From assembly GCA_026989175.1 (NCBI GenBank), contig JALSJT010000013.1:1-33146 (forward strand): a stretch of DNA of 33,146 nt, given 5' to 3'. Shown one piece after another: positions 14,950 through 28,525 of this stretch. The DNA comes from Thiomicrorhabdus sp. (GTDB lineage: Bacteria; Pseudomonadota; Gammaproteobacteria; Thiomicrospirales; Thiomicrospiraceae). Both the position numbers and the translations under genes were made by a program. Every line of letters starts with the position of its first letter. Within the stretch, counting starts at the first letter, position 1. The notes under the pieces are model-generated. The model was not told the DNA's origin. It saw only the letters and a program-made list of their open reading frames with translations, and did not search any database.

Positions 14950-15071
14950 GTAACGATTCAGCTTGCTCCCTGAAATACGCCACTTCTGCGTTAAAAAATG
15001 GACATTTACACTTGTAAACTCACATTTTTTGCCTTGAATTGACGGATTTCAGGGGCAATCTGAACCGTTAC
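14950..15071. repeat. Family-2 palindromic element, copy A
   Basis: Near full-length imperfect palindrome: GTAACGATTCAG.../...CTGAACCGTTAC with centre TTTACACTTGTAAA. Core matches 28257-28380. Confidence 0.85.
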
Positions 15072-15554: not shown

Positions 15555-16010
15555 TTAAATACGTTTTAAAAGTTGAATTTTATCCCCTATTTGAATGGTT
15601 CCCTCTTTGAGTACCTTGCAGCGAATACCGCCATTCCAGTCGGGTGATAGGGCTTCTTTTAGCCCAGGGCAGAGTTGCTCCATTCGAGCGCAAGGGTCAG
15701 TTTCTGCGGTAATTTCGAGCAGTACTTTTCCAACTTGAACCTGTTGTCCAATCAGAGCATCACCTTCGCTAAAATCCATGTCATCCACCAATAAATTTGC
15801 CCGTCTTTCACTCCAGTCCAATTTGACGTCTAATGTTTGGCAAATACGCTCCCATGTTTGAGCTGAGAGTAGGGTGACTTGGGTACGTGGGTTACACTGA
15901 CCACGATAATCATTCTCAAGCCCTGTTTTTAGATGGACTTGAATACTCTGGTGCTGTGTAATGGCCCCTTTTGACTGGGCATGGGTTGCAATCCCAATAA
16001 GTTTTGGCAT
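15555..16010 (-). CDS. MOSC domain-containing protein
   Basis: 151 aa; ETDPCARMEQLCPGLKEALSPDWNGGIRCKVLKEGTIQIGD is MOSC-like. Confidence 0.85.
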   Translation of the reverse strand: MPKLIGIATHAQSKGAITQHQSIQVHLKTGLENDYRGQCNPRTQVTLLSAQTWERICQTLDVKLDWSERRANLLVDDMDFSEGDALIGQQVQVGKVLLEITAETDPCARMEQLCPGLKEALSPDWNGGIRCKVLKEGTIQIGDKIQLLKRI

Positions 16011-16097
16011 GATGCGTTTCTTCTGTTATAAATTGGTCAGACGGCATTATAATGAGCCAATAAAACAATGAATGTGACATTTTAGTGAATAAGTACA

Positions 16098-16256
16098 GAG
16101 ACCTTTGCTCGAGAGGAGCGCTAGAGAAAAAAGAGATAAAATTTGGCTGATTGAGGCGGGAAATGCAGGGAATACCTAGGTATTCACAAGTTTTTCAACA
16201 AAAATCAGGTATATTTTAACCTTTTTTATCTGTGCATCCTTTCGTGTAAAGGTCTC
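16098..16256. repeat. Family-1 palindromic MITE-like element, copy 2 (full length)
   Basis: 159 bp; GAGACCTTTGCTCGAGAGGAGCGC at the left, GCATCCTTTCGTGTAAAGGTCTC at the right, arms pair along the length with one 1-nt indel around GAATACCTAGGTATTC (16170-16185). No ORF inside. Confidence 0.85.
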
Positions 16257-16269
16257 AGAGTGAGATAAG

Positions 16270-17340
16270 ATGAAAAAAGTAGCAGGCGAGGCGATGTCTT
16301 TAGGATCCGTGATGATTGATATTGAGGGCACGTGCTTGCAACCGATTGAAAAAGAGCGGTTGATGTCGCCGTTGGTGGCGGGCGTTATTTTATTTAGTCG
16401 CAATTTTGAGACGATCGAGCAGTTACAACGCTTAACCACTCAGATTCATAACTTACGCCATCCAAGGCTTTTAATTGCCGTGGATCATGAAGGTGGGCGA
16501 GTACAACGTTTTCGAGAGGGATTTACCCATATTCCGCCGATGCGCTTGTTAGGTACGTTGTATGAACAAGACCCCTCTAATAGCTATCAAGTCGCTGAAA
16601 AAATAGGGTGGTTATTGGCGGCAGAGTTACTGTCGGTTGGCGTTGATTTTAGTTTTGCCCCTGTTGTTGATTTGGACTATGGTGGCAGTACCGTGATTGG
16701 CGATCGTGCGTTTCATCGCCACAGTGCTGCGGTGGGAAATTTATCGTTTCACTTGATGTTAGGAATGCGAAAAGCGGGCATGGCGTCGGTGGCAAAACAC
16801 TTTCCTGGGCATGGCTTTATTGAGGCCGATACGCATATTGAGATGGTGGTGGACGAGCGACCGTTTATGGAAGTTCAGCAACATGATATGAAGCCATTTT
16901 TACATTTGATTGAAAATGGATTGGATGCGGTGATGCCCGCACATGTGATCTACCCGAAAGTTGACAGCTTACCCGCAGGGTTTTCAGAGGTCTGGTTGCA
17001 GGCGATTCTACGAAAACAGTGTCACTTTGAAGGGGCGATTATCAGTGATGATATGAGCATGAAAGCGGCACAAGCCTATGGCACGCCTTCTGAGCGAGTA
17101 TTAAAAGCGCTGCAAGCAGGGTGCGATTTAGTGTTGGTGTGTAATGATCCTTTAGCTTCAGATGAAGTGCTGGCAAAATTAGTTTGGCACGCTTGCACCT
17201 TATCTCATGCTCGATTGATTCGTTTGCATGGGCACGGTAAATTTAATTATGCAACCTTACGATTTGACCCTCAATGGCAAGCGGCCGTGAGTGTCGTGAA
17301 TGAATTAAACCAAGTAAATGATCAGCAGGAGTTAATTTAA
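16270..17340 (+). CDS. nagZ: Beta-N-acetylhexosaminidase (cell wall recycling)
   Basis: MSLGSVMIDIEGTCLQPIEKERL, LIAVDHEGGRVQRFREGFTHIPPM, KHFPGHGFIEADTHIE. Alternative in-frame start at 16294. Confidence 0.96.
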   Translation: MKKVAGEAMSLGSVMIDIEGTCLQPIEKERLMSPLVAGVILFSRNFETIEQLQRLTTQIHNLRHPRLLIAVDHEGGRVQRFREGFTHIPPMRLLGTLYEQDPSNSYQVAEKIGWLLAAELLSVGVDFSFAPVVDLDYGGSTVIGDRAFHRHSAAVGNLSFHLMLGMRKAGMASVAKHFPGHGFIEADTHIEMVVDERPFMEVQQHDMKPFLHLIENGLDAVMPAHVIYPKVDSLPAGFSEVWLQAILRKQCHFEGAIISDDMSMKAAQAYGTPSERVLKALQAGCDLVLVCNDPLASDEVLAKLVWHACTLSHARLIRLHGHGKFNYATLRFDPQWQAAVSVVNELNQVNDQQELI

Positions 17341-28256: not shown

Positions 28257-28380
28257 GGTAACTGCTCAGCTAACTCCTGAAAAGAGTCAACTCCGTGTTA
28301 AAAAATGGATATTTACACGTGTAAACGCACATTTTTAGCCTTGATTTGTTCTCTTTTCAGAAGTCATCTGAGCCGTTACC
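28257..28380. repeat. Family-2 palindromic element, copy B
   Basis: GGTAACTGCTCAG.../...CTGAGCCGTTACC with perfect centre TTTACACGTGTAAA; core matches 14950-15071. Confidence 0.85.
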
Positions 28381-28500
28381 AACATATTTGATGGCTCGTT
28401 GAGTCGTTATAAAAAAATCCGCACGTTTACCGACACATAAAACGGGGTGCTGAAAAAGGGGGGTAAAATTTTACCTAATACGCTTTTTTGGTTCGTCTTA

Positions 28501-28525
28501 TGGGGTAAACGGAGGCTTAACCCCA
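28501..28525 (+). promoter_or_regulatory. Leader hairpin before rpsB (possible S2 autoregulatory element)
   Basis: TGGGGTAAACGGAGGCTTAACCCCA, 17 nt before the rpsB start. Confidence 0.4.

Follow-up and report, generated by a model that had tools for sequence, protein, structure and literature searches.

A 159-bp hairpin MITE upstream of nagZ in Thiomicrorhabdus with a core that appears to be under strand-specific selection

The bcr1 repeat of the Bacillus cereus group is a mobile element of ~155 bp with 5-bp duplications and with paired changes in its predicted RNA fold; it is not known to have IS5-type ends. The Correia (NEMIS, CREE) repeats of Neisseria, of 107 and ~155 bp, likewise form a long hairpin and occur in high copy number. 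NEMIS transcripts are cleaved by RNase III (PMC10969869), and a systematic survey of stem-loops lists NEMIS and the Pseudomonas families separately (PMC2267715). In enterobacteria, the 127-bp ERIC sequence is an intergenic repeat that is palindromic over its full length, and its transcript influences the decay of mRNA (PMC10969869). Two IS5-family-derived MITEs with a parent inferred from their ends are BrickBuilt, from Porphyromonas gingivalis, and the ATR of Neisseria (parent ISNme1) (PMC4596501).

The stretch of DNA analyzed here (33,146 nucleotides, hereafter the window), from the marine sulfur bacterium Thiomicrorhabdus sp., contains a full-length copy of a 159-bp MITE at positions 16098-16256 on the plus strand, recognized by the family covariance model R1 with 167.6 bits (E = 2.9e-39). 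The left terminal inverted repeat (16098-16112, plus strand) reads GAGACCTTTGCTCGA, the family consensus being GAGACCTTTGCACGA, and the right one (16242-16256) reads GAGACCTTTACACGA on the minus strand. A perfect 16-bp palindrome at 16170-16185 forms the tip of the hairpin, and the conserved core that the element has in common with elements bearing other ends spans 16135-16221 on the plus strand (core model R2, 84.5 bits, E = 6.9e-19). The extent of the segment, its inverted ends and the central palindrome agree with the coordinates claimed in an earlier note on this DNA. That note put the right end 14 bp before the ATG of nagZ (16270-17340, plus strand; glycosyl hydrolase family 3, Pfam PF00933, E = 2.7e-77), a gene that adjoins the element but lies outside it; the measured spacer is 13 nt. 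The element has no coding capacity, as had also been claimed, the sole overlapping open reading frame being a spurious, GTG-started one on the minus strand. With its 159 bp and 15-bp ends, it is thus a short, noncoding sequence with terminal inverted repeats, as MITEs are. The earlier note suggested that the element could supply or disrupt nagZ expression; a promoter and terminator scan of positions 15950-16350 found neither. No Rfam family was matched above its gathering threshold by the element itself or by its more distant relatives.

The segment is one copy of a short mobile, non-autonomous DNA element. Its genome (1.98 Mb in 212 contigs) holds ~92 copies of the 159-bp MITE, with 40 long copies scored by BLAST, so that the single-copy outcome by which the earlier note proposed to refute its own reading does not apply. 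Target duplications accompany 57 of the 79 full-length copies in the genome, 56 of them with 5 bp and one with 6 bp, and are AT-rich and otherwise unspecific. A 5-bp duplication is found in 35 of 84 copies from relatives and, in the larger copy sets, in 27 of 40 (G015) and 19 of 34 (G018). At nagZ itself the absence of a convincing duplication, remarked on earlier, was borne out. Because this copy lacks a duplication and has diverged from its sister copies by 8-10%, it is probably an old insertion. A plasmid collection returned no match to the 159-bp element, and no paper in the literature collection searched connects MITE with Thiomicrospira.

Two further pieces of the element lie in the window. 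A second copy at base 1, already suspected from the sequence, occupies positions 1-127 on the minus strand (R1) and is ended by the contig edge. A right-end remnant of the same GAGACC element was located by repeat search and sequence at 1535-1566 on the plus strand; it stops 14 bp upstream of the start codon (1581) of hfq, a gene assigned by reading its open reading frame, a spacing nearly the same as at nagZ. Contigs C211, C16, C19 and C86 of the same genome start, like the window, inside or at an element copy. The assembly is therefore probably broken by the element, and more copies may exist than were counted.

Three relatives (G022, G016 and G029) have an empty orthologous site upstream of nagZ, in line with the earlier suggestion to compare such sites; in G022 it reads TTTAGTGAAAACGGTGAGATG, compared with TTTAGTGAATAAGTACA, element, AGAGTGAGATAAGATG in our sequence. 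In G025 an independent insertion in the same orientation precedes nagZ with a TTAAT duplication (L208:1297-1481), and in G018 an inverted, degenerate insertion sits just before the gene (L215:1319-1477). From these separate insertions in other species, the region upstream of nagZ is a recurrent insertion spot. The position of the element 13 nt before the ATG, together with the insertions at the same place in G025 and, inverted, in G018, is what one would cite for a conserved nagZ leader or cis-regulator. Most relatives examined nevertheless lack an element before nagZ and the ~92 copies lie elsewhere in the genome; since relatives show the empty site, the element is not a conserved nagZ leader, and we assign that reading next to no probability.

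The ends of the element point to a transposase source within the genus. G029 contains two elements of 1254 bp, and G007 one of 1244 bp, whose ends are GAGAYCTTTGCACGA or a near variant, as are those of an internally deleted 586-bp element in G016. The 1254-bp G029 elements carry GAGAYCTTTGCACGA at both ends and encode a 328-aa IS5-family transposase matching NF033581 (E = 2.6e-77). The 15-bp ends are thus the same in the 159-bp MITE and in the 1244-1254-bp IS5-family elements of the genus, which are the likely source of transposase for the MITE; the search for a transposase with matching ends that the earlier note had called for accordingly found one in Thiomicrorhabdus. In other proteobacteria, related transposons carry these ends too, one of them (L315) with a 5-bp duplication, and no target duplication was seen at the Thiomicrorhabdus copies of the insertion sequence. 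BrickBuilt and ATR have the same terminal 12 bp as our element, GAGACCTTTGCA; BrickBuilt carries a minisatellite, the part of the source available describes no shared hairpin core, and the comparison covered the ends (PMC4596501).

In the MITE-rich relatives G015 and G018 no transposase of the IS5_4 type is found now, for which loss of the transposase after amplification of the MITE is the simplest reading. The PF01609 transposases of G015 (13 being 400 aa) were considered as a source, and no GAGACC pair flanks any of them. In G018, GAGACC ends without a partner were likewise considered as a hidden insertion sequence, and among the matches listed no pair lies at the distance of an insertion sequence. 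Beside an IS5-type transposon of a marine gammaproteobacterium lies another MITE (L310:1736-1874), of 139 bp, which has GAGACC ends and is flanked by a CCTTT duplication; the interior of this MITE matches the core model weakly (18.5 bits).

The hairpin fold of the nagZ element is far beyond chance. The plus strand of 16098-16256 folds with -66.7 kcal/mol, compared with -33.3 +/- 3.6 kcal/mol in dinucleotide shuffles (z = -9.3), and the minus strand with -45.3 kcal/mol (z = -6.1). In an alignment of 58 copies from this genome and its relatives, 37 of 64 pairs (230 cells) had both partners changed while still pairing; shuffled alignments gave 20.0 pairs and 79.5 cells on average, 0 of 500 reaching the observed level, and slid structures gave 15-49 cells. 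RNAalifold reported both-side changes at 33 of 56 pairs. In all genome groups the plus strand is the stabler one, mostly with a margin of 10-20 kcal/mol, and the same holds for 97% of the copies. A stable YNMG tetraloop was considered as an RNA signature and dropped, being found in 139 of 157 family copies and not class-wide.

A G-T juxtaposition on one strand of a hairpin is an A-C juxtaposition on the other, and the ratio of the two among departures from Watson-Crick pairing can therefore indicate which strand is under constraint. Counted as distinct events, which are not fully independent because the copies are kin by descent, such departures comprise 123 G-T and 59 A-C cases (p = 2e-6), and unpaired columns show no asymmetry of this type after allowing for base opportunities. 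These data favor a hairpin fold that is selected, and selected on one strand. The earlier guess of a MITE-like or hairpin-RNA element thus holds on its MITE side, and a selected single-strand hairpin is favored as well.

The observed covariation bears on two explanations that dispense with selection on the fold. In an ordinary MITE only the ends would matter to the transposase, and the palindrome between them would be functionless inherited filler, a reading that agrees with the match of the ends to IS5-type elements and with the neutrality of variants confined to one copy (see below). We regard it as quite unlikely in view of the strong covariation, the confinement of the strand asymmetry to paired columns, a length that stays close to 159 bp in dozens of families, and the conservation of the core within different ends. 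Paired changes could also arise without selection if template switching during replication corrected imperfect palindromes, an established mutational process for which a long near-palindrome such as this element would be a natural substrate. Such correction would, however, erase conserved mismatches, while the same internal loops and G-U pairs are retained from genus to genus, and it would not favor one strand; we judge it highly improbable.

Splitting the variants by the number of copies that carry them, into private (one copy) and shared (at least four to five copies), separates two patterns. Among private variants the G-T to A-C ratio is 12:10 in our genome, 13:12 in G018 and 10:9 in G015, for a total of 35:31, whereas among shared variants it is 10:0, 3:0 and 3:0, respectively, with a total of only 16:0 (Fisher p = 3e-4 for shared versus private). 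Pair-keeping and pair-breaking changes are similarly distributed 22:8 among shared and 53:94 among private variants (p = 2e-4). As shared variants respect the fold and private ones do not, we infer that the folded strand aids spreading, and that the fold is probably kept by whatever makes copies spread and not by individual insertions. The neutrality of private variants would mean that insertions decay neutrally while source copies retain the fold.

The orientation of copies relative to neighboring genes shows no bias, with tandem contexts split 44:46 on crude open reading frame calls. Read-through from neighbors thus does not easily explain the strand preference, and the result fits poorly both with selection on read-through and with host regulation. 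Under host-level regulation, the insertions would act as RNA hairpins processed in flanking mRNAs, and useful copies would be kept. The closeness of insertions to genes and their recurrence before nagZ agree with such a role, as does the RNase III cleavage of NEMIS transcripts (PMC10969869). Given the lack of orientation bias, the neutral decay of private variants and the relatives without a nagZ copy, we consider it very unlikely that host regulation accounts for the fold.

The same lack of bias, which a read-through RNA role would not predict, counts for a selected form consisting of folded single-stranded DNA, comparable to integron attC sites or REP/RAYT hairpins, where one strand would be exposed during lagging-strand synthesis or when the element is excised, and would be recognized by its hairpin. 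A strand-specific fold kept through propagation suits this reading equally, and G-T is the milder mismatch in DNA too. The 5-bp and 4-bp duplications and the IS5-type ends point instead to ordinary double-strand DDE transposition, and the sequence-conserved internal loops look RNA-like, which is a weak argument; on balance we think single-stranded DNA a credible but rather unlikely alternative.

The core recurs in elements with other ends. In the taxonomic family, R1 matched 43 of 63 genomes and six of seven genera, an order-level search returning the same set. Over Gammaproteobacteria, R1 matched 43 of 274 sampled genomes in 37 of 221 genera, with matches nearly always of 158-162 bp, and over Pseudomonadota the core model R2 matched 73 of 399 genomes, some of the hits being repeats in a different sequence context; the genome sets for class and phylum were drawn as samples and are not censuses. 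Outside the family many copies end differently, in GGAACCTCTGATTAATTCTGG, and often have duplications of 4 bp (TTAA, for instance), and copies with GAGACC ends and 5-bp duplications also occur; six end types were assigned by eye and with simple scripts. Both end groups conserve, in order, the motifs AAAAT, AGGC, GCA, AATA.C..GCTATT, AAG, AAC and ATTTT. In 49 of 51 class-wide copies the same strand gives the better fold, one of the two exceptions being L369, whose match strand was not known, and the core has a G-T to A-C ratio of 108:14, a figure inflated in favor of G-T by the derivation of the structure from that same strand. A Pseudomonas aeruginosa copy, fetched for comparison, scored 46.3 bits with the core model.

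Two repeats of this kind occur in the window itself. A 122-bp repeat with ends GTAACGGTTCAG at 14950-15071 has the core on the minus strand (R2, 46.5 bits, E = 3.3e-9), and a second 122-bp repeat with ends GTAACGGCTCAG and the same core, also on the minus strand, lies at 28258-28379 (R2, 28.5 bits, E = 1.3e-4), where R1 found it unprompted (E = 1.7e-6). In these GTAACGG-ended repeats the core strand is again the one that folds better. The presence of the core on the same strand in small mobile elements with different ends across Pseudomonadota suggests that the fold aids their spread. A third copy of the 122-bp GTAACGG repeat is present in the relative G029 (L072). Repeats in Pseudomonas-type genomes (L435, L441, L442 and L445) have this core embedded in longer flanking sequence (TAGGGTCTGTTC...), lack simple terminal repeats and are not in Rfam. 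An ordinary t44 RNA (Rfam RF00127) lies at 28402-28521 in the window, before rpsB.

The motif order in the core resembles that of the Correia repeat. A Correia query retrieved a real copy 100% identical to it. With the core model and filters off, this gonococcal copy ranked first in a 30-kb stretch with a modest 26.6 bits and an E-value of 3.4e-4, in a comparison that was picked after the fact for its motif order, that has only rough E-values and that misses the copy under default filters. It scores far better on one strand than on the other and has AAGGCG..CAACG at the same places as our element, but its ends, TATAGTGGATTAAATTT, differ from GAGACCTTTGCACGA, as does its inner stem sequence. 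The Correia query also retrieved a Cupriavidus element with other ends, which scored 30.6 bits with the core model. On these matches it is likely, but not proven, that the Correia repeat shares its hairpin core with the Thiomicrorhabdus element. ERIC resembles the element as a full-length palindromic repeat but has no core-model match, the best score in an ERIC locus (5.9 bits) falling outside the repeat. The bcr1 repeat resembles the element in length, mobility, 5-bp duplications and paired changes, and its hosts, unlike those of our element, are Gram-positive.

The 159-bp MITE is a mobile element with IS5-type ends, and we find it probable that its hairpin core is under strand-specific selection acting on propagation. 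An IS5-type transposase would act in trans on the MITE through the shared ends, and the folded single strand itself would raise the success of spreading or the survival of new copies. Within this explanation we lean modestly toward RNA as the acting form: the plus strand would be transcribed into a hairpin, and a host factor might bind or process the conserved internal loops of this transcript, AGGC/AAC and GCA/AA. The alternative acting form would be folded single-stranded DNA in mobilization or replication. The ends would be the replaceable part and the core the persisting part, with the nagZ copy representing one old, decaying insertion.

The usual view of bacterial MITEs is of transposon ends with filler between them. 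In the element described here it is the interior that is conserved, apparently kept on one strand and recurring within different ends, possibly including those of Correia. A broader reading, which we put forward tentatively and at somewhat less than even probability, is that a single ancient module with the loops AGGC/AAC and GCA/AA persists across Pseudomonadota as a selfish unit in MITEs that repeatedly swap ends and transposase, its folded strand, probably as RNA, promoting its own spread, and Correia being one form of it. The covariance models from this analysis allow such repeats, for which Rfam has no family, to be annotated. If this view of the interior is right, separately named repeat families would share one active ingredient, and the question of why many bacterial MITEs are full-length hairpins would become testable.
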